From: an uncultured Ruminococcus sp.
GTDB lineage: Bacteria > Bacillota > Clostridia > Oscillospirales > Acutalibacteraceae
Reading direction: 5' to 3'
Length of the DNA stretch: 33,428 nucleotides
Assembly (NCBI GenBank): GCA_902773635.1
Contig: CACYFH010000010.1
Location: forward strand, 1 to 33,428
Position numbers and translations under genes: made by a program. Below are positions 1 through 29,889 of this stretch, piece by piece; the stretch's first letter is position 1, and the number at the start of each line of letters is the position of its first letter. The notes under the pieces were generated by a model that had not been told where the DNA came from, made no database searches, and saw nothing but the letters and a program-made list of their open reading frames with translations.

Positions 1-480
1 CGTGTGCTGTACAAAGACAAAGCCGGGCTGGACAACATACTTGTTGACGATCTTCTCGACATCGGAGCCGGTACGGGTGAGGATCTTGACCTTCATTTCA
101 ATATCCGCCTCGCCGGGAGCGATAACGGTATAATCGGTGACGATCAGCTTCGCGTCGGCAGCCTTGAAGGAATAGCCTCTCGCCTTGCTGGCGTTGAAGA
201 TGATCCTGCCGGCCTTGGAAGCGTTGGACATGGTATCGTCGCCGGTGACCGGGAATACTTTTTCAAGATCCACGATCATGCCGTCGTCGTTGGGGTCCCA
301 TTCGTCATTCAGACTGAGGATAGAAGCGGGATAATCCAGCTCCGCGTCAAGGGACGCGATCATGCCGTCGTCGATAGCGGAGGTGTTCAGATAAGCGTAT
401 ACGGTGAAGGTATCGCCGACGTTGAACTCCTTGGTCTCAGTCTCGCCGTCAAAGCCGTGGAGGGTGACAGTCGCCTTCTC
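1..480 (-). repeat. Cohesin-like module 3 (partial) of the dockerin protein
   Basis: This is the third coding repeat of the secreted protein, truncated by the left edge. It matches the modules at 973-1488 and 1579-2095 along its length, with the same motifs (GDTFTVY, LEKVFPVTGDD, GRIIFN, DYTVIAPGEAD, VQPGFVFVQHTTFD). It has diverged slightly more than the other two have from each other. Confidence 0.75.
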
Positions 481-2595
481 AATGGCAGTTGTCGGCTCAG
501 CGGTAGTCGGCTGAGGTGCGGGAGTTGTAGGAGCGGGAGTGGTGGGTGCGGGGGTGGTAGGCTGAACGGTCGTAGGCTCAGCAGTGGTCGGCTGGGGAGT
601 GAGCTTCGGGATGATCAGGCTCTCTCCGGTGACCTCTACCGCGCCGGTCGCGTCAGCAAACAGCTTGTTGCAGACAGAGCAGATATAGTGCGCCTTCATG
701 CCCTCCGCCTCGTAGGTGGCGGGGACTTCCGCAACATAGGTCAGAGTGTGAGCGAGCTTTGCGATGGTCTTGTGGGTGCGGGAGATCTCCTCGCCGCAAG
801 TGGAGCAATAGACGACCTCGTCGTAGCTGCCTTCTGCGGTGCAGGTGGCGGGGACTTCATTCTCGCGGACAATGGTCGCGGGAGTATGGGTATGCTCAGT
901 GGGAGCAGGATCGGTAGGCTGAGGTGCGGGTTCAGTAGGTGCGGGTTCAGTAGGTTCAGCTTCAGTCGGCTGAACGTCGTAGGAAACGGTGTAGTTCGGG
1001 TCGAAGGTCGTATGCTGGACGAATACAAATCCGGGCTGGACAACATACTTGTTGACGATCTTCTCGACATCGGGGCCGGTACGGGCAAGGATCTCGACCT
1101 TCATTTCAATATCCGCCTCGCCGGGAGCGATAACGGTGTAATCCGTGACGATCAGCTTCGCGTCGGCAGCCTTGAAAGAGTAACCTCTCGCCTTGCTGGA
1201 GTTGAAGATGATCCTGCCGGTCTTGGAAGCGTTGGACATGGTATCGTCGCCGGTGACCGGGAATACTTTTTCAAGATCCACGATCATGCCGTCCTCAGCG
1301 GGATCCCATTCGTCATTCAGACTGAGGATAGAAGCGGTGTAGTCCTGCTCACAGTCGAGGGACGCGATCTTACCGTCGTCGATCAGGGCGGTATTCAGAT
1401 AGGAATACACGGTGAAGGTGTCGCCGACGTTGAACTCTCTGGTCTCGGTCTCGCCGTCAAAGCCGTGGAGGGTGACGATCGCCTTCTCAGCGGCAGTCGT
1501 CGGCTCAGCGGCGGTAGGCTGGGGAGCGGGCTCGGTCGGCTGGGGTTCGGGCTCAGTCGGAGCGGGTTCAGTCGGCTGAACGTCATAGGAAACGGTGTAG
1601 TTCGGGTCGAAGGTCGTATGCTGGACGAATACAAATCCGGGCTGGACAACGCCCTTGTGGACGATCTTCTCGACCTCGGGGCCGGTACGGGCAAGGATCT
1701 TGACCTTCGTTTCAATATCCGCCTCGCCGGGAGCGATAACGGTGTAATCCGTGACGATCAGTTTCGCATCGGCAGCCTTGAAAGAGTAACCTCTCGCCTT
1801 GCTGGAGTTGAAGATGATCCTGCCGGTCTTGGAAGCGTTGGAGATGGTATCATCGCCGGTGACCGGGAATACTTTTTCAAGATCCACGATCATGCCGTTG
1901 TCGTTGGGGTCCCATTCATCGTTCAGGGAGAGGATGGACGCGGTGTAGTCCTGCTCACAGTCAAGGGACGCGATCTTACCGTCGTCGATCAGGGCTGTAT
2001 TCAAATAAGAATATACGGTGAAGGTATCGCCGACGTTGAACTCTCTGGTCTCGGTCTCGCCGTCAAAGCCGTGGAGGGTGACGGTCGCCTTCTCGGCGGC
2101 AGTCGTCGGCTCAGCGGTAGTCGGCTGGGGAGCGGGCTCGGTAGGCTGGGGAGCGGGCTCGGTAGGCTCGGGAGCGGGTGTGGTGGGAGCAGGCTCGGTC
2201 GGCTCGGGATCAAGCGGGATCCGCTCCCCGATGCCCTTGTTACGCGCTTCTTTTCTGCGGGCAACGAAAGCGGAAAGCAAATTCAAATCGTTCACGTCTA
2301 CAGCAGGATCTAAGCCTATCGCTTCATCATCTCTGTAAACGTTAGCAATTCTGAATTCGAGCTGATCCGGGGACATCGTAAAATAACGGATATATCCCGA
2401 CCTTCTCGACAGTGAGCATCTCAGCTCAAAAACGTCGTTGACGTCAACGTATCCGTTGCGGTTGACGTCGCCGAGAAGAGGGATCGGGTAAGGTTCGGTT
2501 TCTTCAGCGGCAGTCTGCACGATGCCGACTGTGATCATGCTGAGCATCATCATCAGGATCAGCAGTAAGCTGACTGCGCTTTTGGCTTTTTTCAT
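1..2595 (-). CDS. Secreted dockerin protein with cohesin-like repeats (C-terminus cut by window edge)
   Basis: The leftward frame starting at 2595 stays open to the window edge, giving at least 865 residues. A strong ribosome site (GGAGGAGATTAC) directly precedes the ATG. Residues 1-30 form a signal peptide (MKKAK, hydrophobic stretch, TAAEE). Residues about 41-115 are a dockerin-like module: the first calcium loop is clear (GDVNRNGYVDVNDV), the second (VYRDDEAIGLDPAVDVNDL) is degenerate. Then come Pro/Thr/Glu linkers and three copies of a beta-rich module of about 170 residues (starting VTLHGFDGETET, ending YTVSYDV), which resembles cohesin-like folds. Between the second and third modules is a block with CxxC pairs (YCSTCGEE, ICSVCNK). 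It is likely exported and cell-surface or extracellular, acting in protein-protein assembly. No catalytic domain is visible. The cohesin-like label is inferred from pattern; the dockerin call is firmer. Confidence 0.8.
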   Translation of the reverse strand, partial: MKKAKSAVSLLLILMMMLSMITVGIVQTAAEETEPYPIPLLGDVNRNGYVDVNDVFELRCSLSRRSGYIRYFTMSPDQLEFRIANVYRDDEAIGLDPAVDVNDLNLLSAFVARRKEARNKGIGERIPLDPEPTEPAPTTPAPEPTEPAPQPTEPAPQPTTAEPTTAAEKATVTLHGFDGETETREFNVGDTFTVYSYLNTALIDDGKIASLDCEQDYTASILSLNDEWDPNDNGMIVDLEKVFPVTGDDTISNASKTGRIIFNSSKARGYSFKAADAKLIVTDYTVIAPGEADIETKVKILARTGPEVEKIVHKGVVQPGFVFVQHTTFDPNYTVSYDVQPTEPAPTEPEPQPTEPAPQPTAAEPTTAAEKAIVTLHGFDGETETREFNVGDTFTVYSYLNTALIDDGKIASLDCEQDYTASILSLNDEWDPAEDGMIVDLEKVFPVTGDDTMSNASKTGRIIFNSSKARGYSFKAADAKLIVTDYTVIAPGEADIEMKVEILARTGPDVEKIVNKYVVQPGFVFVQHTTFDPNYTVSYDVQPTEAEPTEPAPTEPAPQPTDPAPTEHTHTPATIVRENEVPATCTAEGSYDEVVYCSTCGEEISRTHKTIAKLAHTLTYVAEVPATYEAEGMKAHYICSVCNKLFADATGAVEVTGESLIIPKLTPQPTTAEPTTVQPTTPAPTTPAPTTPAPQPTTAEPTTAIEKATVTLHGFDGETETKEFNVGDTFTVYAYLNTSAIDDGMIASLDAELDYPASILSLNDEWDPNDDGMIVDLEKVFPVTGDDTMSNASKAGRIIFNASKARGYSFKAADAKLIVTDYTVIAPGEADIEMKVKILTRTGSDVEKIVNKYVVQPGFVFVQHT
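973..1488 (-). repeat. Cohesin-like module 2 of the dockerin protein
   Basis: Second coding repeat of about 172 residues. It is near-identical at nucleotide level to the module at 1579-2095, including long runs with few or no differences, so the copies arose by recent duplication or are homogenised by recombination. Confidence 0.8.
1579..2095 (-). repeat. Cohesin-like module 1 of the dockerin protein
   Basis: First coding repeat after the dockerin module, followed in the protein by a TEPAPTEPEPQP-type linker. It carries the shared motifs (FNVGDTFTVY, DLEKVFPVTGDD, NSSKARGYSFKAADAK). Confidence 0.8.
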
Positions 2596-2681
2596 GTAAT
2601 CTCCTCCGTTTTCTGTACCGACATGCGGATGCCGGCGCATGATTTCTCACCCATGCATGGCGCATAAGTGCTATTATGTTT

Positions 2682-2710
2682 ATTATATTACAAACGTGTA
2701 ACTGATTCAA
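2682..2710 (-). promoter_or_regulatory. Promoter of the dockerin gene
   Basis: On the minus strand there is a -35 TTGAAT (2705-2710), a 17-nt spacer and a perfect -10 TATAAT (2682-2687). The predicted start near 2675 leaves a leader of about 80 nt before the ATG at 2595. Nothing else is visible between this promoter and the rpoC terminator. Confidence 0.75.
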
Positions 2711-2830
2711 GAATCGTCCGGTCTTTTAGTCCATTTGCCATATAGAAAAAACGCTTTCAAATTTATGCAGTCTGCCAAGAGGTCTGGCGGATGTTGCCAA
2801 TCAGGAGCCCCGTTTCTCGTGAATAATGAC

Positions 2831-2867
2831 GGAAAAAGCGCCTCCGGCACATACATGCCGAAGGCGC
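2831..2867 (-). terminator. Intrinsic terminator after rpoC
   Basis: On the minus strand a 12-bp stem (2838-2849 with 2856-2867, one G-T pair, 6-nt loop) is followed by a run of five T at 2833-2837. It begins about 20 nt after the rpoC stop codon. Confidence 0.9.
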
Positions 2868-2888
2868 ATAGCGTTTGGTTATGATAGA

Positions 2889-5800
2889 TTATTCCTCGAT
2901 GGGAGCAACGGGAGCGGTGGGGATGAAATTCTCCTCCAGCTCGATGTTGTTGTAGCGCGGCATACCGGTACCGGCGGGCACGAGCTTACCGATCAGGACG
3001 TTCTCCTTCAAGCCGACCAGCGGATCGACCTTGCCCTTGATAGCGGCGTCGGTCAGCACGCGGGTGGTCTCCTGGAAGGACGCGGCGGACAGGAAGCTGT
3101 CGGTCGCGAGAGAAGCCTTGGTGATACCAAGCAGGAGCTGGGTCCAGGTAGCTTCCTTGAGACCCTCCTCGCCGTTCGCGATGCGCTCCTTGATGAGCTT
3201 GTTGGCATAGAGGACCTCGGTGCGGTTGTACATCTGGCCGTGCATGAAGTCGGTGGAACCGGGATCGTCGACTCTGACCTTCTTGAGCATCTGGCGGACG
3301 ATGACCTCGATGTGCTTATCGTTGATATCAACACCCTGCAGACGGTAGGTACTCTGTACCTCAGAGATCAGGTAGTCCTGAACCGCCTTCGCGCCCATGA
3401 TCTCCAGAATATCGTGGGGATTGACGGCGCCGTCGGTGATCTTGTCGCCCTTCTTGACATGGGCGCCCTCTTCCACGGCTACGCGGAAGCCGAAGGGGAT
3501 CAGATAGCTCTTCTCCTCACCGGTCTCGGTATTGTAAATGATCGCGTGGCGGGCGTTCTTGATCTCCTCAAAACGCACCTCACCGTCGATCTCGGAAATG
3601 ATCGCGAGATTCTTGGGCTTACGGGTCTCGAACAGCTCCTCGACACGGGGAAGACCCTGAGTGATATCCTCAGCGGACGCGACGCCGCCCGTATGGAAGG
3701 TACGCATTGTCAGCTGGGTACCGGGCTCGCCGATGGACTGTGCGGCGATGATACCGACCGCCTCACCGACGGTGACGGGCTGGCCGTTCGCAAGGTTCGC
3801 GCCGTAGCACTTCTTGCAGACGCCGTGCTTACTGCGGCAGGCGAGGATGGAGCGGATCTCGACGCTCTCAACGCCGGAGTTGCAGATGATATCGGCTTCC
3901 TTATCGCCCATGAGGGTATCCTTGGAGACGAGGACGTTGCCGTTCTCATCACAGAAATCACGGACGAGATAGCGGCCGAGCAGACGCTCGTGCATCTCCT
4001 CGATGACCTGCTTGCCAGCCTTGATGTCAAAGACCTCAAGACCGTCGTTCGCGTGGCAGTCGTCCTCACGGATGATGACCTCCTGAGAAACGTCGACGAG
4101 TCGACGGGTCAGGTAACCGGAGTCCGCGGTACGCAGCGCGGTATCGGCAAGACCCTTACGCGCGCCACGGGAGGAAATGAAGTATTCCAAGATGTTCAGA
4201 CCTTCACGATAGTTCGCACGGATCGGGATCTCGATGGTCTTACCGGAGGTGTTCGCGATCAGTCCGCGCATACCCGCGAGCTGACGGATCTGGCTCATAG
4301 AACCACGCGCGCCGGAATCAGCCATCATGTAGATCGGGTTATATCTGTCAAGGTTGCCCTGCAGCTTGTCGGTAACGTCGTTGGTCGCCTTCTCCCAGAT
4401 GGAAAGAACCTTCTCGTATCTCTCCTGGTCGGAGCGCAGACCCATGTTGTATTCCTCGCGGATTGCGTCGACGTCGGTCTCAGCCTTCGCGATGATCTCC
4501 TTCTTCTCGGGCGGGATGGTCGCGTCGCAGACAGCGACGGTGATCGCGCCGATGGTGGAGTACTTGTAGCCCTGTGCCTTGATCTTATCGAGCACCTCAG
4601 CGGTGATCTCGGTACCGTGGACGCGGATGCAGGCGTCGATGATCTTACCGAGCTGCTTCTTGCCGACGAGGAAATCGACCTCAAACTTGCAGATGTTCTC
4701 CTCGACGCTTCTGTCGACAAAGCCGAGATCCTGGGGAACGGCACGGTTGAAGATGATCTTGCCGACGGTGGTGTCGATAATGGCGCTGTGCTTCACGCCG
4801 TCGATCTCGACCTCGCGTCTGACCTTGATCTTGCTGTGGAGGGTAACGTACTTGGTCTGATACGCCATCAGCGCCTCGTCAACGTCCTTGAACGCCTTGC
4901 CTTCACCCGGCTCGCCGTCCTTGTCGAGCGTCAGGTAGTAGGAACCGAGGATCATATCCTGGGTCGGAACGACGACAGGCTTACCGTCGGAGGGCTTCAA
5001 GAGGTTGCCGGCGGCGAGCATCAGGAAGCGGGCTTCCGCCTGCGCCTCCGCAGACAGCGGAACGTGGACAGCCATCTGGTCGCCGTCGAAGTCCGCGTTG
5101 TATGCGGTACAAACCAGCGGATGGAGCTTGAGAGCGCGACCCTCAACGAGGACAGGCTCGAACGCCTGGATACCTAATCTATGGAGCGTAGGCGCGCGGT
5201 TCAGGAGGACGGGATGGCCCTTGATGACCACCTCGAGCGCGTCCCAGACCTCGGGCTTCGCTCTCTCGACAGCCTTGCGGGCTGCTTTGATGTTCTGAGA
5301 GACCTTGGTCTCGACAAGGCGCTTCATGACGAAGGGCTTGAACAGCTCGAGCGCCATCTCCTTGGGCAGACCGCACTGGTACATCTTCAGCTCAGGGCCG
5401 ACGACGATAACGGAACGGCCGGAGTAGTCGACACGCTTGCCGAGAAGGTTCTGACGGAAACGACCCTGCTTACCCTTGAGCATATCGGAGAGGGACTTCA
5501 GAGAGCGGTTGGACGGACCGGTGACAGGACGGCCTCTTCTGCCGTTGTCGATCAGGGCGTCGACCGCTTCCTGCAGCATGCGCTTCTCGTTACGGATAAT
5601 GATATCGGGAGCCTCCAGCTCGAGGAGTCGAGCCAGACGGTTGTTACGGTTGATAACGCGGCGATACAGGTCGTTCAGGTCGGAGGTCGCGAAACGGCCG
5701 CCGTCGAGCTGTACCATCGGGCGGATATCCGGCGGGATGACCGGGAGCGCTTCCAGGATCATCCACTCGGGACGGTTGCCGGAGAGACGGAACGCCTCTA

Positions 5801-11425: not shown

Positions 11426-11480
11426 CAATCCCTCAGTCATCGAATAAATTCGATGACAGCTCCCTTTACCAAAGGGAGCC
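11426..11480 (+). repeat. Palindromic intergenic repeat, short copy
   Basis: It begins CAATCCCTCAGTCATCGA and holds two hairpins: TCATCGAA...TTCGATGA and GGCTCCCTTTGG/CCAAAGGGAGCC (read on either strand). A second, longer copy lies at 26198-26301. It fills the gap between birA and spoVAC and supplies the last codons and stop of spoVAC. It resembles the small REP-like elements scattered in Clostridia genomes; the strand given is arbitrary. Confidence 0.8.
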
Positions 11481-14563: not shown

Positions 14564-16477
14564 ATGTACAAATGCGAACTGTATACTCTCTCAAAGGATC
14601 TTGACAGCGTGAATCTGCTGCGGGAAAAGAGCGGCGTACAGGCGGCGCTTGCGGAAGCGAACGCGGAGCTGCTGAACCTCAGCGAGCTGCCCGCCTCCCG
14701 CGGGAAGATCGCCGCTGAGGTCAGCCGGAAGCTCGATCTCGGCGCGGCGGATCTGTTCATCTTTGCCAACGCGCTCAGCTCGACCGACCACAGCTCCTTC
14801 CGCAAGCAATTCTACGACCTGGTCACGATGCTGCAGAACAGCGTGAAGTGCGACGACAAAGCGCTCTCTGTCAAGGTCAAGGTCAGCTCTCTGGGCGACC
14901 TCGGAAACGGCTGCAAGGGCTACTGCTTCCGGCTCAAGGACAAGCGGTTCTTAGCGCTCCCGCAGGCGAGCCTGACCGGAAAGGACAATGAAACGCTGAT
15001 CACGGAAGCGCTCGCAAAGTCGGAGGATATCTTTGCCCAAAAGAGCGAGAAATATCCCGACGGCGTTTCCCTCGTCGACAAGAAGGGCAACGCGGTCGAT
15101 CCGGCAGGTCATGAGCTGATCATAAAAGAAAAGGCCGATCACAAAAAGAAGCAGGGCTTCATCCGCTCGTTCATCCCGTGGAAGGGCGACAGCAAGAGCC
15201 AGATCATCCGCAAGAGCGTCGTGCTCGTCGCGATCGTCGCCTTCGTCGGCGCGCTGGCATATGTGCTGGATTTCTTCATTTTCGGTCCGATGCAGAACAA
15301 CGCGATCACCAGCGAGATACAGTCGATCGCCTACAGCAAGAGCGGCGAGAGCGGCGAGGGCGGCGAGAAAGGCCCCGCGCAGGACTGGAAGGCGCTCAAA
15401 AAGATCAATAAGGAGATCGTCGGCTGGCTGAAGATCCCCGACACCGTCATCGACTACCCGGTGCTCGAGCACATCGGCGACGACCGCTACAACCAGTATT
15501 ACATCGACAAGTCCTATAAGAAGGACGGCACGGAATACGGCAGTATCTTCCTCGACTATCGCTCCACGGACAGCGTGAACTCCCGCAACGTCATCATGCA
15601 CGGTCACAACATGCGCGACGGCAGCCAGTTCCACAGCCTGCTGAGCTACTCGCACGAGGGCGACCTCAAGGGTGATCTCGACTACTACCGCAAGCACCCG
15701 GTCATCATCTTCAACACGCCCGAGGGCGATGCGAAGTACAAGATCATCTCCGTATTCAAGACCTCCACCCGCTATGAGCACGGCGAGTTCTTCAACTACA
15801 TGCAGGGCGCGTTCAACTCCGACGCGGAGTTCATGAACTTCGTCTACAACCTGCGGATCCGCTCGATGTTCGACATCCCCGTCACCTGCAACGAGGGCGA
15901 CCAGATCATCACCCTCTCCACCTGCTGCTATGAGTTCTACGAATGGCGCTGTGTGGTAGTCGCGCGTAAGGTTCGACCCGGTGAGGACGAGAGCGTGGAC
16001 GTGAATCTCGCGTCGCTGAATCCCTCTCCCCTCTTCCCGGACGTTTACTATGAGCGTTACGGCGGCGAGAGACCCGACCCGCTCACCTTCAAGACCGCCA
16101 ACAGCAAGAGCGCGATCTCCTGGTATGACGGCAAGGGCGATCTGGAGGGCAGCGAGGATCTGACCGCGACGCTGGCGGCGAATCCGACCGAGCCGCCGAC
16201 CGAGAAGCCGAAGCCCGGCGAGACCCGTCCCACCGAGCCGCCGGAGATCACCTACTATCAGGTCGTCTACCGCAACGTTGACGGCAGCCAGTACGCAGCC
16301 TACAACGTGCGCGAGGGCGATCCTCTGCCGACGCCTCCGGGCACACCGACGATGGCGGAGGATGAAAACTTCACCTATGTGTTCGACGGCTGGAATCTGG
16401 ATATACCGGGCGTTGACTTCCAGCATCTGAACGTCGGTCTGGAGATCTACCCGACCTTCAATGCGATCCCGAAATAA
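14564..16477 (+). CDS. Composite class B sortase with cytoplasmic MoaB/CinA-like domain
   Basis: A membrane transpeptidase that links surface proteins to the cell wall or to each other. It has 637 residues. Positions 1-160 form a cytoplasmic domain with no catalytic motif known to me; its segment AEVSRKL...LFIFANALSSTD...LALPQ resembles a worn MoaB/CinA fold and the protein encoded at 16519. A charged linker is followed by one membrane helix (about 217-240). The sortase domain (about 275-475) has GHNM with H348, TLSTC with C454 and R462. A Pro/Glu linker (540-560) leads to a C-terminal InlB/Flg_new-like beta repeat (562-634; YRNVDGSQYAAYNVREGDPLP, then VFDGW). AGAAGG precedes the ATG. Ordinary SrtB proteins are about 240-300 residues, so both ends are additions. 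No substrate with a sorting signal is visible in the window. Confidence 0.88.
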   Translation: MYKCELYTLSKDLDSVNLLREKSGVQAALAEANAELLNLSELPASRGKIAAEVSRKLDLGAADLFIFANALSSTDHSSFRKQFYDLVTMLQNSVKCDDKALSVKVKVSSLGDLGNGCKGYCFRLKDKRFLALPQASLTGKDNETLITEALAKSEDIFAQKSEKYPDGVSLVDKKGNAVDPAGHELIIKEKADHKKKQGFIRSFIPWKGDSKSQIIRKSVVLVAIVAFVGALAYVLDFFIFGPMQNNAITSEIQSIAYSKSGESGEGGEKGPAQDWKALKKINKEIVGWLKIPDTVIDYPVLEHIGDDRYNQYYIDKSYKKDGTEYGSIFLDYRSTDSVNSRNVIMHGHNMRDGSQFHSLLSYSHEGDLKGDLDYYRKHPVIIFNTPEGDAKYKIISVFKTSTRYEHGEFFNYMQGAFNSDAEFMNFVYNLRIRSMFDIPVTCNEGDQIITLSTCCYEFYEWRCVVVARKVRPGEDESVDVNLASLNPSPLFPDVYYERYGGERPDPLTFKTANSKSAISWYDGKGDLEGSEDLTATLAANPTEPPTEKPKPGETRPTEPPEITYYQVVYRNVDGSQYAAYNVREGDPLPTPPGTPTMAEDENFTYVFDGWNLDIPGVDFQHLNVGLEIYPTFNAIPK

Positions 16478-16518: not shown

Positions 16519-16932
16519 ATGAAATACGATCTGATCTTTTATATTGCAAAGAAAACATCCTACTGTGAGAAAACCGTGAAGCGCCTGCTGGGCGGCATCG
16601 GCGGCGAGGTGAACCTCGTCACCGACGCGACCACGCCTACCGCGCTGGGTGAGGAGGTCAGCGGGTCGCTGAGACGCTGTCCGCTCGCGGTGATCGTCGG
16701 AGGGCTCGGCTCCTATGACGACGACAACCTCGCGACGGTGCTCTCCCGCGTCTTCTCGAACTCCGGGCTGACGCTTGAGAACATGCGCCGTCTGCGCACA
16801 CAGAGCGGCGAGGCGGGCTATATCATTCGCTACAGGAGCCAGATCCTCTTAGCGCTCCCGGACTCTCCTCAGGCGATTGAGGAAATCTTCACGCAAAAGC
16901 TGCTCGACTACCTCACCGAAAAGCTATCATAA
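16519..16932 (+). CDS. Small MoaB/CinA-like domain protein, paralogous to the sortase N-terminus
   Basis: 137 residues, function unknown. The segment LAVIVGGLGSYDDDNLATVL and the later ILLALPDSPQAIEEIF follow the pattern of the molybdopterin-binding-like fold (GGLGPTxDDxT...LPGxP), but the key residues have drifted. The upstream sortase has an equivalent arrangement at residues 50-150. No signal peptide or membrane segment is seen, so it should be cytoplasmic. It starts 41 nt after the sortase stop. The gap holds a small palindrome (16490-16502) and no clear ribosome site. A strong terminator follows, so this is the last gene of the group. It may work with the cytoplasmic domain of the sortase (inference). 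Molybdopterin biosynthesis is unlikely, since no related gene is nearby. Confidence 0.7.
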   Translation: MKYDLIFYIAKKTSYCEKTVKRLLGGIGGEVNLVTDATTPTALGEEVSGSLRRCPLAVIVGGLGSYDDDNLATVLSRVFSNSGLTLENMRRLRTQSGEAGYIIRYRSQILLALPDSPQAIEEIFTQKLLDYLTEKLS

Positions 16933-24668: not shown

Positions 24669-24757
24669 GGAAACAAATGCGTTGCGGGCGGCTCCTCCCC
24701 CGCATACCCGCGCGTGCTCGTGCATATAGTGTAGAAGAATTCTGCGGGAGGGATGGG

Positions 24758-25297
24758 ATGAAACGGAGGGCGGCGACCTCGGAGGCTGTCGGCGCGGTGG
24801 CGATCTACTCCGCGGCGGTTTTCCTGCACTTTGTCAACGCGTTCGGCGGCGGGGCGCTGGGGCTGGTGTTCGGCGCGGTCAACGAGAGCGTGTGGGAGCA
24901 TGTGAAGATCTTCTCCTTCGCCTACGTCGGCTGGGCGATCCTGCAGTTGTGCTGGCTGAGAGCGCCGTTCCGTCAGTACGCGGTCGCGAAATGCATCGGG
25001 CTGTACCTGCTGATGGGCGGGATGATCGGGTTCTACTACGCGTACACGGCGTTCACGGGCGGCAATATCCTCGCGGTCGATATCCTCTCCTCACTCATTC
25101 TCCTGCTTCTGGTGCAGGGACTGAGCTATGCGCTCGAGGTGCGCGACGGTCATCTGCGGGAGCTGTTCGTCCCCGCGATGCTGCTGTTGCTCCTGTACTA
25201 CCTGATGTTCTTCTCCTTCACCGTCTTTGCGCCGCGGCTGCCGCTCTTTCGCGATCCGGTGACGGGCGGCTACGGGATCGTCACGGCTTTCCAATAA
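24758..25297 (+). CDS. Small multi-pass membrane protein (DUF6512-like)
   Basis: 179 residues from the ATG at 24758, which has GGGAGG five bases upstream; in-frame codons before it are GC-rich and not protein-like. Five or six membrane helices are visible. The segment FGAVNESVWEHVKIFSFAY, after the first helix, is the recognisable family signature. No catalytic motif is evident and the function is unknown. It is flanked on the left by the DnaA-box region and on the right by rlmB, which has its own promoter-like elements, so it may be a single-gene unit. Confidence 0.75.
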   Translation: MKRRAATSEAVGAVAIYSAAVFLHFVNAFGGGALGLVFGAVNESVWEHVKIFSFAYVGWAILQLCWLRAPFRQYAVAKCIGLYLLMGGMIGFYYAYTAFTGGNILAVDILSSLILLLLVQGLSYALEVRDGHLRELFVPAMLLLLLYYLMFFSFTVFAPRLPLFRDPVTGGYGIVTAFQ

Positions 25298-25402: not shown

Positions 25403-26158
25403 ATGAGAGAGAACAATCAGAAACCGTATGCCGAGGACGAGCTGCTGATCGGACGCAATCCGATCACGGAGGCGCTCGCCTCGGGACGCTCCATCATCAA
25501 GATCATGATCGCCAAAGGGACAAACTCCGGACCTGCCGTCGAGATCGCCGCAAAAGCAAAGAAGGCGGGCATCCCGGTGCAGGAGGTCGAGCGCAAAAAG
25601 CTCGATTTCATGACCGGAGGCGCGGCGCACCAGGGCGTCGCCGCACTCTGCGCGATGAAGGACTATGCCGAGGTGGAGGACATCTTAGCGCTGGCGGAAC
25701 AGCGTAACGAGCCGCCCTTTATCATCATCCTCGACGAGATCGAGGATCCGCACAACCTCGGCGCGATCATCCGCTCGGCGGAATGTGCAGGCGCGCACGG
25801 CGTCATCATCAAGAAGCGCCGCTCCGCGGGACTGACCTACACCGCGTACAAGGCCTCCGCCGGCGCGCTGGAGTATCTCCCGGTCGCGCGCGTCACCAAT
25901 ATCGCCGATACGATCGACGAGCTGAAGGAAAAGAACATCTGGGTCTACGGCGCGGATATGGACGGCGAGGACTACTGCAAGACGAACTTTGACGGCGGTG
26001 TCGCGCTGGTCATCGGCAACGAGGGCAAGGGCATCTCGCGGCTGGTCAGAGAAAAATGCGACGTGATCGTCTCGCTCCCGCTCAAGGGAAGGATCAACTC
26101 GCTCAATGCATCCGTCGCGGCGGGCATCCTGATGTACAAGGTCGCCGAAAAGCGATAA
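25403..26158 (+). CDS. rlmB: 23S rRNA 2'-O-ribose methyltransferase, RlmB/TrmH family
   Basis: A SAM-dependent SPOUT methyltransferase. The closest known role is 2'-O-methylation of G2251 in 23S rRNA. It has 251 residues: an N-terminal substrate-binding domain (LLIGRNPITEAL...HQGVAAL), then the knotted domain with motif 1 LDEIEDPHNLGAIIRSAECAG, motif 2 ALVIGNEGKGISRLV and motif 3 LPLKGRINSLNASVAAGI. All three motifs are complete. The ribosome site is weak (TAGG). Other SpoU-family targets, such as tRNA, cannot be excluded from sequence alone. A GC-rich hairpin and a palindromic repeat follow. Confidence 0.9.
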   Translation: MRENNQKPYAEDELLIGRNPITEALASGRSIIKIMIAKGTNSGPAVEIAAKAKKAGIPVQEVERKKLDFMTGGAAHQGVAALCAMKDYAEVEDILALAEQRNEPPFIIILDEIEDPHNLGAIIRSAECAGAHGVIIKKRRSAGLTYTAYKASAGALEYLPVARVTNIADTIDELKEKNIWVYGADMDGEDYCKTNFDGGVALVIGNEGKGISRLVREKCDVIVSLPLKGRINSLNASVAAGILMYKVAEKR

Positions 26159-26168
26159 AATAAGGTTG

Positions 26169-26190
26169 TCGGCAACGCGCGTGTTGCCGA
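26169..26190 (+). terminator. Hairpin after rlmB, possible terminator
   Basis: An 8-bp stem (26169-26176 with 26183-26190) with a 6-nt loop, starting about 10 nt after the rlmB stop. There is no T-tract, so termination here is uncertain. Confidence 0.35.
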
Positions 26191-26197
26191 TATGATA

Positions 26198-26301
26198 CAA
26201 TCCCTCAGTCATCGAGCAAGCTCGACGACAGCTCTCCGGTGTATGGATTTTGTAAGCCAAAACAAGTTTTAGACAAAATCTCACCTTTACCAAAGGGAGC
26301 C
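26198..26301 (+). repeat. Palindromic intergenic repeat, long copy
   Basis: Shares its left end (CAATCCCTCAGTCATCGA) and right end (CCTTTACCAAAGGGAGCC) with the copy at 11426-11480. Here about 49 nt are inserted between GACAGCTC and CCTTTACC. The insert carries its own inverted repeat, GATTTTGT...ACAAAATC. It ends 43 nt before the start of the next gene. Confidence 0.8.
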
Positions 26302-26344
26302 ATATTTCACCCGCATTTGTGCGTGAGACAGAGGAGATGAAAAC

Positions 26345-29041
26345 ATGAAGATCTTCCACAAGGATAAAGATAAAGAGAAGCAAAAGGAAAAGACCCGCGA
26401 GATCCACGCTCCGCAGGAGACGGAGGACGTCTCCCCCGCAGAGGAAGCCGCCGCCGAGATCGACAAGACAGCGGCGCAGGAGCTCGCGTACAATGCCGAC
26501 GAGAAAGAGCAGAATCCCGACAGCAGGATGGAGGAGATCTACTCCACAAAGGCGAAGCAGGTCAAGTTCCGCAGGCAGGAGCCGCTCGAGGAAGAGGCCG
26601 CCGCCAAGCGCAAGGAAGCCGCGAAGGACGAGCTGATGCGCGGACAGCTGGAGTTCAGCCTCGACGACGAGGAGGACGCTCCCGAGGTCATGCTCGAGCC
26701 GGAGCTTGATCCGAACGCGGTCGTCGCGGAGGAGATCATCGAGGACGTCGTGGACGTCAAGAAGCTCCGCAACATCTATGTCCAGGATATCGACGACATC
26801 GACGTCAGTCTCGATCCGATGGAAGCCGTGAACGAATATGAGCGCGGCGCGGCGGACACAGCGCGGCGCGACGCGCGGCAGACGGCGCAGAAGCCCGAGG
26901 AGCGCACACCCTCCGCGGAGACGGTCGTCGCCAAGGTGCCGATCTATCAGCACGAAAGCAAATTCGATTATATCTACCTCAAGGCGGGCCGCTTCACGGA
27001 CGTCGTGGAGAGCGAGTACGACGAATACCTCAAATCCACCGACCCGACGATCTCAAAGAATTACCACGCGATGCGCCCCGAGGTCAAGCCGCACCAAAGC
27101 CTGCTGTACACCCTCAGCCAGATGGCGGCGCGCAGGAAGCAGGAGTCCGAGGAAAAGCAGAAGAGCAAGGAGATCCTGCGGAACAACTTTGACGAGGAGA
27201 TGCCCAAGCCGAAGAAAAAGAAGCGTTCCCGCGTGGGACGGTTCTTCCGCGTTCTGGGCGCTGTGATCGCGTCGGGCTTCACCGCTCCCTCCCGCTCGGA
27301 GCAGGAGCGCACGCTCGACTACAACTCCCGCGAGGATGAAAAATATCTCTCCGAGCGCACCCGGAAGAATTTCCGGCGTCTCGCCGGAGGGCTTGCGCTG
27401 TTCTCGGTGATCTGCGTCATCATGGTGGCGCTGGTGATCTGGGAGCGCACCTGCGGCGCGGCGGCGATCGCAGAAAGAGGAAACGGCATCGCCGTCGCCT
27501 ACTGTACGACCCAGCTTGTGCTCACGCTGATCATGGGCTTAATCGGCAGACACACCCTGCTCGACGGCTTGAAGCCGCTCAAACGCTTCAAGGGCAACAG
27601 CGCGACGGTGCTCGCGCTCGCATATATCGCCTGTGTGATGCAGTCGATCGTCGCGATGTTCACGACGACCTCCTTCGTCGGCGGCGACCACCATCTGTAC
27701 AGCTTCGTCGTCTCTATCGCGCTGGTGCTCCACACCGCCGGACGGCTGATGATGGTGACGCGCGTCAAGAACAATTTCGACTTTATCAGCTCCCGTTCGC
27801 CCGCATATGCGGCGAAGATCTATAACGACGAGGAAGCCGCGCGCCGCATGGCAGGCGGCACGGTCGCGTCAAAGGGCGTGGTCGCGTACCAGCATGTGAC
27901 GAGCTTCCTCTCCGATTTCCTGAAAATTTCCTACGCGCCCGATCCCAGCGAGGATATCTCCGGCAAGTTCATGCCGATCACGGTGATCAGCGCGCTGTTC
28001 GTGACGATCCTCTACGCGATCCTCTTCAAGAGCGTGCCCGGCGCGTTCTCCGCGCTGGCGGTCATGCTGAGCATCGGCATCCCCTTCACCGCGATGGTGG
28101 CGGGCAATCTGCCGATGATGCTGTTCAGCAGAAAGATGCTAGACGAGGACGCGATGGTCGCGGGCTACCCCTCCGTGCGGCAGTTCTGTGACACCAACGC
28201 GCTGCTGATGCGCGCGTCCGACCTCTTCCCCGACGGCTGTGTCGAGCTAAGCGAGCTGCTCCCGCTGCAGCAGTTGCGCGTGGAGGACGGTCTCTTGATG
28301 GCGGCGGCTGTGCTCAGAGAAGCGCACTCCCCCATTGCCCCGGTCTTTGACGAGCTGGTCATGGAGAATCGCGGGATGCTGCCGATGGTGGAAAACGTCC
28401 TGTATGAAGACAAGAGCGGTCTGGTGGGCTGGATCAACGGCGAGCGCATCCTCATCGGAAATCTCACCCTCATGAACCGCTACCACATCACCATCCCCGA
28501 GGACGGCAACCTGCGCCGTATGGAGCGGTCGGGAGAGCCGACCTACATCGCCGTGGCGGGTCAGGCGATCGCCGCGATGGCGCTGACCTATCAGGCGTCG
28601 CCGATCGCCAAGGAACAGATACAGCAGGCGGAGAAGAACGGTCTGGCGCTGATCGTCAGCACCACCGACGCGAACGTCACCGACGAGATGATCGCGGATC
28701 GGTATGAGATCTTCTACCGCTCCGTCAAGGTCACGGCGCCCGGATACTCCGACCTGATCGACGAGGCTGTCGGCAAGACGGAGGAGACCTCCCGCGCCTA
28801 CCTCGCCACCCGCGGACGCGTCGGGTCGCTCGCGAGAGCGGTCGGCGGCTGTATCGCACTCAAGGCGAATATCCGTCTCGGCATCGTAATCGAGATCTTC
28901 GGGATGCTGCTGGGCATCCTGCTGAGCGCAACGCTGGCGCTCTACGCCTCTGTCGCGCGGCTGTCGGCGTTCGAGCTGCTGATCTACATCGGCTTCTGGG
29001 TAACGGCGACGCTGATCGCGGAGATCATCAAGAGGCCGTGA
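26345..29041 (+). CDS. P-type ATPase-like membrane protein lacking catalytic motifs (pseudoenzyme)
   Basis: 898 residues; GGAGATGAAAAC precedes the ATG. Residues 1-340 are highly charged and probably disordered. Membrane segments lie near 345-366, 380-400, 418-440, 450-471, 543-562, 566-595, 843-868 and 874-895: the 4+2+2 layout of P1B metal ATPases. The region 596-790 resembles their P and N domains (AVLREAHSPIAPVFDEL, WINGERILIGNLTLM, TYIAVAGQAIAAMALTY, STTDANVTDEMIADRYEI). Where DKTGTLT is expected (after GYPSVRQFCDTNALL) the sequence is MRASDLFPDG, with Arg in place of the phosphorylated Asp. TGES and GDGxND are not found and TGD has become TTD. It should not hydrolyse ATP by the usual route. 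It may be a sensor, scaffold or regulatory subunit (inference). No frameshift is seen. Confidence 0.7.
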   Translation: MKIFHKDKDKEKQKEKTREIHAPQETEDVSPAEEAAAEIDKTAAQELAYNADEKEQNPDSRMEEIYSTKAKQVKFRRQEPLEEEAAAKRKEAAKDELMRGQLEFSLDDEEDAPEVMLEPELDPNAVVAEEIIEDVVDVKKLRNIYVQDIDDIDVSLDPMEAVNEYERGAADTARRDARQTAQKPEERTPSAETVVAKVPIYQHESKFDYIYLKAGRFTDVVESEYDEYLKSTDPTISKNYHAMRPEVKPHQSLLYTLSQMAARRKQESEEKQKSKEILRNNFDEEMPKPKKKKRSRVGRFFRVLGAVIASGFTAPSRSEQERTLDYNSREDEKYLSERTRKNFRRLAGGLALFSVICVIMVALVIWERTCGAAAIAERGNGIAVAYCTTQLVLTLIMGLIGRHTLLDGLKPLKRFKGNSATVLALAYIACVMQSIVAMFTTTSFVGGDHHLYSFVVSIALVLHTAGRLMMVTRVKNNFDFISSRSPAYAAKIYNDEEAARRMAGGTVASKGVVAYQHVTSFLSDFLKISYAPDPSEDISGKFMPITVISALFVTILYAILFKSVPGAFSALAVMLSIGIPFTAMVAGNLPMMLFSRKMLDEDAMVAGYPSVRQFCDTNALLMRASDLFPDGCVELSELLPLQQLRVEDGLLMAAAVLREAHSPIAPVFDELVMENRGMLPMVENVLYEDKSGLVGWINGERILIGNLTLMNRYHITIPEDGNLRRMERSGEPTYIAVAGQAIAAMALTYQASPIAKEQIQQAEKNGLALIVSTTDANVTDEMIADRYEIFYRSVKVTAPGYSDLIDEAVGKTEETSRAYLATRGRVGSLARAVGGCIALKANIRLGIVIEIFGMLLGILLSATLALYASVARLSAFELLIYIGFWVTATLIAEIIKRP

Positions 29042-29094: not shown

Positions 29095-29745
29095 ATGCTG
29101 ATTGCACCTTCCCTTTTATCCTGTGATTTTTCCAAATTCGCGGACGAGATCATCCGCGTCGACCGCGCGGGCGCAGACATCATGCACCTGGACGTCATGG
29201 ACGGTCACTTCGTGCCCAACCTGACCTTCGGGGCGCCGGTCATCAAGAAGCTGAGAAAGGCGACAGACAAGCCCTTTGACGTGCACCTGATGATCAGCGA
29301 GCCGCACCGCTATATCGGCGACTTCGCCGCCGCAGGCGCAGACATCATCTCCTTCCATACCGAATGTGACAGCGATATCGACGAGACGCTCAGATTGATC
29401 GAGGAGAGCGGCGTGAAGCCCGCCCTCGCGATCAAGCCGGGCACCGCTCCCGAGGTCGTCCTGCCGTATCTCGACCGGCTGTATATGGTGCTGGTCATGA
29501 CGGTGGAGCCGGGCTTCGGCGGTCAGAGCTTCATGCCCGATATGATGCCGAAGGTGGAGTTCCTGAAGAGGGAGATCGCAAAGCGCGGACTCTCCACCCT
29601 GATCGAGGTGGACGGCGGCATCGCGAAGGACACGATCGCGACCGCGGCGAAGGCGGGCGTTGACATCTGCGTCGCGGGTACTGCCGTTTTCGGCGCACCG
29701 GACGCAAAGACCGCTATTGACGAGCTGAAAGCGCTGTGCGAATAA
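29095..29745 (+). CDS. rpe: Ribulose-phosphate 3-epimerase
   Basis: Interconverts ribulose 5-phosphate and xylulose 5-phosphate in the pentose phosphate pathway; cytoplasmic TIM barrel. It has 216 residues, the normal length. All family motifs are present: IAPSLLSCDF, MHLDVMDGHFVPNLTFG (metal His and Asp), DVHLMI, MTVEPGFGGQ, IEVDGGI and VAGTAVF. AAAGGAG lies 8 nt before the ATG, directly after the 7-bp array. It may be transcribed with the gene upstream, since no separate promoter is clear in the 53-nt gap. Confidence 0.97.
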   Translation: MLIAPSLLSCDFSKFADEIIRVDRAGADIMHLDVMDGHFVPNLTFGAPVIKKLRKATDKPFDVHLMISEPHRYIGDFAAAGADIISFHTECDSDIDETLRLIEESGVKPALAIKPGTAPEVVLPYLDRLYMVLVMTVEPGFGGQSFMPDMMPKVEFLKREIAKRGLSTLIEVDGGIAKDTIATAAKAGVDICVAGTAVFGAPDAKTAIDELKALCE

Positions 29746-29764: not shown

Positions 29765-29889
29765 GGGCGGGGGCTTGCTCCCGCCGAAACTTTTCTATAC
29801 AAGGATTTTTGCAAAGCGAATGAACTTGATCTGCTTCGCAACCTCACTTGATTGATCGGAAAGGTCTCGGCGGGAGCAAGCCCCCGCCC
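29765..29889. repeat. 125-bp element with 23-bp perfect terminal inverted repeats
   Basis: Left arm 29765-29787 and right arm 29867-29889 are exact reverse complements of 23 nt, with further imperfect pairing inward (CGAAACTTTTC against GAAAGGTCTCG). Each arm is itself a hairpin of the type at 22721-22748. Six T follow the right arm (29890-29895), so the element can terminate rightward transcription from rpe; a T-rich stretch lies beyond the left arm for leftward transcription. It lies between convergent genes. No coding content; it looks like a miniature mobile element or paired REP. Confidence 0.8.

Follow-up and report, generated by a model that had tools for sequence, protein, structure and literature searches.

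The window, by which we mean the whole 33,428-nucleotide (nt) stretch of DNA analyzed here, from an uncultured Ruminococcus sp., carries on its forward strand (as do all features of this locus given below) an intact open reading frame (ORF) with an ATG start at 26345-29041, encoding an 898-residue protein that we designate a pseudo-P1B-ATPase based on the ORF call, matches to NCBIfam and PDB sequences and the predicted fold. Directly upstream lies rlmB (25403-26158), the nearly constant upstream neighbor of this gene, encoding a 251-residue 23S rRNA (guanosine-2'-O-)-methyltransferase that scored 252.7 bits against TIGR00186 (cut-off 160.15) and also matched PF00588 and PF08032; the two genes are separated by an intergenic stretch of 186 nt (26159-26344), with an AGGAG ribosome-binding-like site 5' of the ATG. 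Downstream is rpe (29095-29745; ribulose-phosphate 3-epimerase by NCBIfam), a neighbor found mainly in near relatives, with an intrinsic-terminator-like hairpin 3' of it (29869-29888). An initial annotation of this gene, made from the letters of the sequence, had read its product as a catalytically dead relative of metal-transporting P-type ATPases. The finding is larger than first noted, with the gene belonging to an order-wide core family that is nearly always tied to rlmB; this nearly constant neighbor, which the initial annotation did not have, is the strongest lead.

The protein consists of an N-terminal cytosolic tail (residues 1-339; 26345-27361), mostly predicted to be disordered, and a membrane-embedded body. 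The tail is indeed long and charged as initially described, with 77 D/E and 59 K/R residues. As read from the helices of the predicted model, membrane helices 1-4 occupy residues 329-482 or so (27329-27790); they are followed by the remnant of an actuator (A) domain (27791-27943), from which a TGES-bearing stretch of 51 residues is deleted (alignment gap in all 54 aligned family members), and then by membrane helices 5-6 (27944-28144), where IPF aligns in place of CPC with the helix-breaking Pro580 retained. The phosphorylation (P) and nucleotide-binding (N) domains come next (28145-28819), with, by alignment and model, RASDL in place of DKTGT and a 30-residue GDGxND stretch deleted; codon 623 (28211-28213; CGC, Arg) aligns with the position of the phosphorylated Asp. 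Membrane helices 7-8 (28820-29026) complete the body, with the P1B metal-binding YN and M..SS positions altered as judged by model and alignment.

Fold and catalytic motifs

A Pfam scan of the window protein gave no match at a usable score, and among the 54 members it returned weak scattered matches, the commonest being Hydrolase in 4/54. Matches to copper ATPases from NCBIfam and PDB sequences were weak but clear over residues 535-789, comprising NCBIfam CopA PRK10671 (E 2.1e-9, residues 536-786) and PDB CopA 3rfu (E 1.4e-9), with the window protein falling below the curated cut-offs (29 vs. 346.25 bits for TIGR01525 and 36.2 vs. 1316 bits for PRK10671). The family alignment covers the conserved core of the 54 members (window residues 321-898); the family core profile matched CopA 3rfu with E 7.6e-33, and NCBIfam CopA was matched by 53 of the 54 members (E<=0.01). 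AlphaFold2 run on the core alignment yielded a model with a mean pLDDT (predicted local distance difference test) of 91.4 and a predicted template modeling (TM) score of 0.85, for which the best PDB match in Foldseek was CopA 4bbj (E 2.2e-18); the whole-chain TM score of 0.54 and root-mean-square deviation of 11.3 vs. 4bbj indicate that the domain arrangement differs from that of CopA. Taken from sequence matches and a predicted model, these data place the protein in the P-type superfamily by fold and descent, with a predicted P1B-type 4+2+2 membrane layout. The layout and the N- and P-domain resemblance proposed initially are thus borne out by the model helices and by the PRK10671, 3rfu and 4bbj matches, with the structural search and the profile comparisons both leading to CopA rather than to an unrelated fold.

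The 54 family cores were compared with 15 canonical P1B pumps, including one from the window's own genome. The 51-residue stretch that bears TGES and the 30-residue stretch that bears GDGxND are gapped in 54/54 family cores, in agreement with the absence of both motifs initially reported, vs. presence of each motif in 15/15 canonical pumps. CPC is likewise missing (0/54 vs. 15/15) and is replaced by xPx, with the Pro kept in 50/54; the N-domain His of SEHPL is found in 15/15 pumps vs. 0/54 members. The metal positions Y, N, M, S and S of membrane helices 7 and 8, each present in 15/15 canonical pumps, are mostly A/G/S, V/I, Q/E, A/T/S and L/A/V in the family, with S at the fourth position in 7/54. 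DKTGT, found in 15/15 pumps, occurs in none of the 54 members, none of 72 nearer relatives of the window protein and none of 18 weak members described below, so that no orthologue in the first two sets carries the motif whose presence would contradict the initial annotation. The TGD motif survives in the form of TxD (D in 51/54), and G692, G705 and Y749 are invariant in 54/54. Stray TGE[SA] strings were seen in 1/54 members and 2/72 nearer relatives, aligning at window residues 508, 17 and 675; the TGEA of one locus (L053, window residue 508) falls within the A-domain remnant and the others at unrelated places. Stray GDG..D strings (2/54 and 1/72) lie at places other than the hinge motif. Judged by these alignments, none of the active-pump motifs DKTGT, TGES, GDGxND and CPx is retained in the family, which is very probably not a pump.

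The residue that aligns with the phosphorylated Asp is D in 41/54 family members, as part of a DAx[DE]L[FY]P motif; among the 72 nearer relatives, the window included, it is D in 31, S in 13, N in 11, E in 10, R in 3, K in 2, T in 1 and G in 1. The replacement of this Asp as initially described therefore stands for the window (Arg 623), with DKTGT in 0/54, and fails for the family as a whole; universal loss among orthologues is not seen, and loss of the Asp throughout the family is ruled out by D in 41/54 and 31/72. The alignments indicate instead that the Asp has drifted in the window's clade and that its loss is clade-specific. Since the pump motifs are lost in 54/54 while the Asp position is D in 41/54, we surmise that drift at this position set in only after the pump had been disarmed.

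Among known systems, CopA (P1B-1 copper ATPase; 3rfu/4bbj; PRK10671) shares with the family the predicted fold, the eight-helix layout, the P and N domains and the Pro of the CPC site, whereas the family lacks TGES, CPC, DKTGT, GDGxND and the SEHPL His and has an A domain reduced to a remnant. Another fold match to the family model was KdpB, the P1A ATPase of KdpFABC (7lc3_B, E 2.3e-10); KdpB exemplifies a P-type protein that functions as one subunit of a larger complex, but it is catalytic, in which the family would differ from it. By analogy from its description, the family can also be likened to eukaryotic TMEM94 (ERMA), which the relevant passages of its report present as a P-type body without TGES, with ten helices and most similar to SPCA (PMC12134183). 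These passages give no detectable ATPase activity and bound AMPPCP, the authors leaving the question open (PMC12134183), while TMEM94 is called an endoplasmic reticulum Mg2+ ATPase in the pertinent part of another paper (PMC13322241), and hence its status is disputed. As so described, TMEM94 is unlike the family in having ten helices, in being eukaryotic and in being nearest to SPCA and not to P1B. Even though few classes of pump are better known than P-type ATPases, no bacterial family of non-pumping P-type ATPases, keeping the body without the pump, was found among the matches listed in the open-access literature, nor is one contained in the passages on this topic of a Journal of Biological Chemistry review (PMC10654040); this accords with the initial remark that no role had been described. 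As far as these searches reach, the family appears unnamed and without a usable Pfam match.

Distribution, selection and gene neighborhood

Within the window's GTDB family, 139/150 genomes (its own included) match at E<=1e-3 and 137 at E<=1.6e-19, the two weakest of the 139 matches being limited to pump-like stretches (G090) or to a short piece (G140). Because 139/150 genomes match, the window ORF is not a product of chance. Across the order, the core profile matches 240/245 genomes at E<=1e-12 and 220/245 at E<=1e-40; the figures 220/245 and 137/150 were counted by eye from the match tables, and for order matches between E 5.9e-62 and 3.1e-48 coverage was viewed for part of the genomes. Of 20 genomes falling between E 1e-40 and 1e-12, 8 have coverage typical of the family, one of them (G377) as a C-terminal piece only, while 12 match over the stretch shared with pumps only, and all 12 hold DKTGT. 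Ten of the weakest matches above the E 1e-40 cut extend beyond the pump-shared stretch without exception, and DKTGT is found in none of these 18 weak members (10 + 8). When 391 genomes sampled across the class were searched, the best match outside the order, among those listed (down to E 4.7e-27), reached E 1.1e-37; the listed out-of-order matches covered only about columns 211-494, the part in common with ordinary pumps, with DKTGT held in 13/13 of those examined; in-order matches listed at E<=5.3e-54 run almost end to end. These data place the family as near-universal in one GTDB order, which we infer to be Oscillospirales. Carriers among 80 named loci include Ruminococcus bromii YE282 (R. 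bromii being placed in Eubacteriales, Oscillospiraceae, by NCBI taxonomy), Ruminococcaceae bacterium P7 and Ruminococcus sp. FMBCY1, as well as numerous Ruminococcus or Oscillospiraceae assemblies from the rumen and gut. Given its near-universality in a large gut order and the lack of a usable Pfam match, the family is a core protein without assigned function in gut bacteria such as R. bromii.

Thirteen genomes of the window's GTDB family have no clear member. Seven of them also lack rlmB over the cut-off; in two (G079 and G111) the contig ends inside an ORF behind rlmB, which in G111 starts with a family tail motif and in G079 is a candidate only; in one (G005) the contig ends just after rlmB; and in three (G067, G093 and G099) rlmB is present with other genes behind it and the family gene is missing.

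The initial view that the 898-codon frame is maintained and not decaying is supported by the intact ORF and by low ratios of nonsynonymous to synonymous substitution (dN/dS) in near relatives, as had been proposed for checking. In the 25 pairs of lowest dS, drawn from near relatives with loci shared between pairs and the window protein itself in none, the core had dN/dS values of 0.026-0.112 and the tail values of 0.046-0.167. Two control genes were read in the same pairs: rlmB gave 0.023-0.063 (13/25 pairs readable) and rpe gave 0.052-0.251 without locus L083 and 0.22-0.50 with it (180 of about 216 codons read there). The near relatives are thus under strong purifying selection, and a random antisense or spurious ORF is ruled out by these ratios together with the matches in 139/150 genomes. 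Homology to an enzyme, loss of catalytic motifs and purifying selection together mark the family, as read from its sequences, as a pseudoenzyme.

The link with rlmB is nearly constant across the order. It lies directly upstream on the same strand in 41/41 loci of the GTDB-family sample, is the upstream partner in 77/80 named loci (gap -109 to 646 nt) and is upstream in 20/20 loci that represent 20 further families of the order, with one locus per family; these locus sets overlap slightly, with L098 and L032 apparently the same contig. Among the named loci, two (L082 and L147) have too little upstream sequence for rlmB to be seen, and in L083 the place expected for rlmB is taken up by 311 nt, at the end of the contig, that gave no match. 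Of the weak members, 17 have a usable locus, 14 of these with rlmB directly upstream; one (G323) has no room upstream for it, and the other two (G343 and G150) are described below. In the family of the order to which G150 belongs, 13/14 genomes have rlmB close upstream on the same contig, strand and side. When 61 loci were clustered jointly, rlmB occupied position -1 in 60 and was also upstream in the 61st (removed by the overlap filter), vs. 11/61 loci for the next most frequent neighbor cluster; rpe, downstream in 79/80 near loci, was clustered in 9/61 loci order-wide, directly downstream in 8. The gap to rlmB is 186 nt in the window and at most 54 nt in 55/77 near loci, depending on the choice of start, with a 4-nt overlap of the genes in four loci (L184, L188, L115 and L117). 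rlmB is over the cut-off in 9/9 family-positive control genomes and in all 14 genomes of the G150 family. The family protein is probably made together with RlmB.

Some loci differ in detail. In L084 the gap between rlmB and the gene is 646 nt, and the 649 nt upstream of the gene in L083 are near-identical to it, which suggests that inserted DNA separates rlmB from the family gene. In L306 (G343) a 114-residue ORF without an NCBIfam match (2149-2493) stands between the two. The sole detached member seen is in L302 (G150; 469-4784), where the pseudo-ATPase gene comes after rplU and obg, in that order, and rlmB is carried by a different contig. An apparent fusion with rlmB in L062 (1090-residue ORF) looks like an over-long open frame instead.

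The N-terminal tail and the proposed role

Residues with pLDDT below 50 number 214 of 898 in the window protein, all before residue 328, and the tail is predicted to be mostly disordered with few short helices. Among the 54 members it ranges from 37 to 1,094 residues, 9 being cut by the end of the locus, and is usually acidic. Profiles built from near relatives define three motifs in it; among 172 family tails, which include those relatives, motif 1 (residues 61-84, 26525-26596; RMEEIYSTKAKQVKFRRQEPLEEE) was matched in 84, motif 2 (residues 138-158, 26756-26818; VKKLRNIYVQDIDDIDVSLDP) in 78 and motif 3 (residues 194-242, 26924-27070; VPIYQHES...KAGRF..VV..EY.EYL) in 92, the weakest matches of the latter two being at chance level. 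Within motif 3, P199, Y201, G215, F217, Y225 and Y228 are invariant in 72 near relatives. The tail motifs are clade-specific: in other lineages the N terminus shows a motif resembling S[VL][DE][DE]I[LI].E (14/54 members vs. 0.38 expected from shuffles), a pattern drawn up post hoc after viewing the sequences. The idea that an N-terminal S[VLI][DE][DE]I-type motif generally tags other proteins was rejected, in that a scan of 3,561 ORFs of at least 120 residues (273 loci, some overlapping) gave only 3 hits beyond the detected family set, all of them family tails cut by locus ends. The 1,094-residue tail (L037, 8892-13847, reverse strand) consists largely of degenerate EPVKQAVVEEK- and ETKSEVEEKPV-type repeats, and four of the longest members contain no known domain in Pfam at E<=0.01.

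We surmise that the family descends from a P1B-1 (CopA-like) copper ATPase whose pump chemistry disappeared no later than the base of the order, and that the disarmed ATPase may have been retained as a structural membrane protein. Such a protein would neither hydrolyze ATP nor move metal, and would act as a membrane-anchored scaffold or receptor, with the eight helices and a frozen P/N head as the anchor and an N domain that may still bind a ligand, while the mostly disordered N-terminal arm might recruit cytosolic partners via short motifs. Since the family protein is probably made together with RlmB, the most economical guess would be a process that needs both in fixed proportion. Overall, a pseudoenzyme kept as a structural membrane protein, scaffold or receptor, and co-expressed with RlmB, is our best explanation, which we hold to have about an even chance of being correct; a scaffold or receptor is slightly favored over some new enzyme. 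Several points weigh against this explanation: 1) the scaffold role would rest on missing features; 2) in a profile search of 172 tails, the motifs of the near relatives did not extend to the whole order, and one conserved partner is therefore not supported order-wide; 3) three rlmB-bearing genomes (G067, G093 and G099) lack the family gene, so RlmB does not need it everywhere, and the G150 gene is detached from rlmB; 4) some residual, unusual phospho-chemistry is, strictly speaking, conceivable from the alignment, given that the Asp position is still D in 41/54 and the TxD Asp is D in 51/54.

We regard a functional, and not merely operonic, tie to RlmB or ribosomes as possible but doubtful. 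In an alternative reading, the tail might tether RlmB or late 50S assembly intermediates to the membrane and couple P-loop methylation to membrane state or protein insertion. This alternative, which we consider unlikely, draws on the position of rlmB just upstream in almost every locus examined from across the order and its 4-nt overlap with the family gene in four of them, on the presence of rlmB in 9/9 family-positive control genomes and in all 14 genomes of the G150 family, with 7/13 apparent absences also lacking rlmB, and on the detached G150 gene following rplU and obg. Both of these genes serve the 50S subunit, obg in ribosome assembly. The obg case, however, is a single genome, whose rlmB sits on another contig, and three genomes keep rlmB alone; joint absence may equal a joint assembly gap or one deletion, the operon may be kept for expression alone, and RlmB itself looks ordinary. 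By the control list, rlmB is also present in Escherichia coli and Bacillus subtilis, and we know of no such RlmB partner in either. A bolder version, in which a dead copper pump became a core membrane platform with RlmB at the origin of the order and its disordered arm holds RlmB or the maturing 50S at the membrane, is in our estimate quite unlikely; if true, ribosome maturation would be tied to the membrane. The near-constant position of rlmB offers a concrete candidate partner, and the motif-bearing disordered tail offers baits.

The initial annotation had raised the roles of metal sensor, scaffold and partner to another pump. The scaffold stays a candidate; the other two gained no support: CPC is found in 0/54 members, and the metal positions of membrane helices 7 and 8 differ. 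An accessory protein, regulatory or structural, to an active P1B pump, forming a hetero-dimer with canonical CopA/ZntA and sensing or limiting metal transport, would fit with CopA pumps as the closest relatives of the family and with the finding that 23/25 genomes tested, the window's own included, have a canonical P1B pump that scores over the cut-off (all 25 were selected as carriers of the family, many of them on account of a single match). Yet two of the 25 (G097 and G116, both 99% complete) carry the family with no P1B pump over the cut-off, which disfavors obligate pairing; the metal-site residues are altered; and a DKTGT scan of ORFs of at least 150 residues in 61 neighborhood loci yielded one ORF (L061), without CPC, TGES or GDG and not pump-like, leaving the pump-partner role improbable. 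We also consider it quite unlikely that the family is a new active enzyme or transporter, with Y749 and a re-arranged DAx[DE]L[FY]P site making up another kind of HAD-like machine for phosphotransfer or lipid handling. In its favor are the Asp kept in 41/54, the invariant G692, G705 and Y749 (54/54), the broken-helix Pro kept in 50/54 and, in the pertinent passages on TMEM94, a lipid held near its broken helix (PMC12134183); nonetheless, the TGES and GDGxND loops are deleted, and the Asp position, varied among the 72 nearer relatives (D in 31 only) despite purifying selection, is thereby unlike a catalytic residue. Most remote of all is a sporulation protein kept since the order descends from spore formers. 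The marker SpoIVA is found in 31/35 tested genomes, but G022 and G089 carry the family without it, and it is present in 11/13 genomes apparently without the family (two of the 13 being seemingly contig-end cuts), so that the distribution of this one marker does not support the link.

Other features of the window

Rfam and tRNA scans of the window gave no matches. Terminator-like sites numbered 7 in the scanned stretch vs. 3.6 expected by chance; promoter-like matches, including those at 26133-26161 and 26169-26196, numbered 3 vs. 1.5 expected and give no evidence of function. Just 3' of rlmB, at 26169-26190, is an 11-nt inverted repeat whose arms abut without a loop and are 91% complementary. 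Upstream of rlmB, a DUF6512 membrane protein is encoded at 24677-25297, with a similar protein at position -2 in 5/61 loci. At the edge of the window there is a 769-residue ORF (4-2313) without a Pfam match at E<=1e-5. A sortase-domain protein of 637 residues (14564-16477) has a long N-terminal region, and the next ORF (16519-16932; 137 residues, no Pfam match at E<=1e-5) resembles that region by eye. Finally, the 20-mer CACCTTTACCAAAGGGAGCC in the gap between rlmB and the pseudo-ATPase gene (26282-26301) has a second copy in the window at 11461-11480, with 2 mismatches and 0 expected by chance, and is perhaps the edge of a dispersed repeat.

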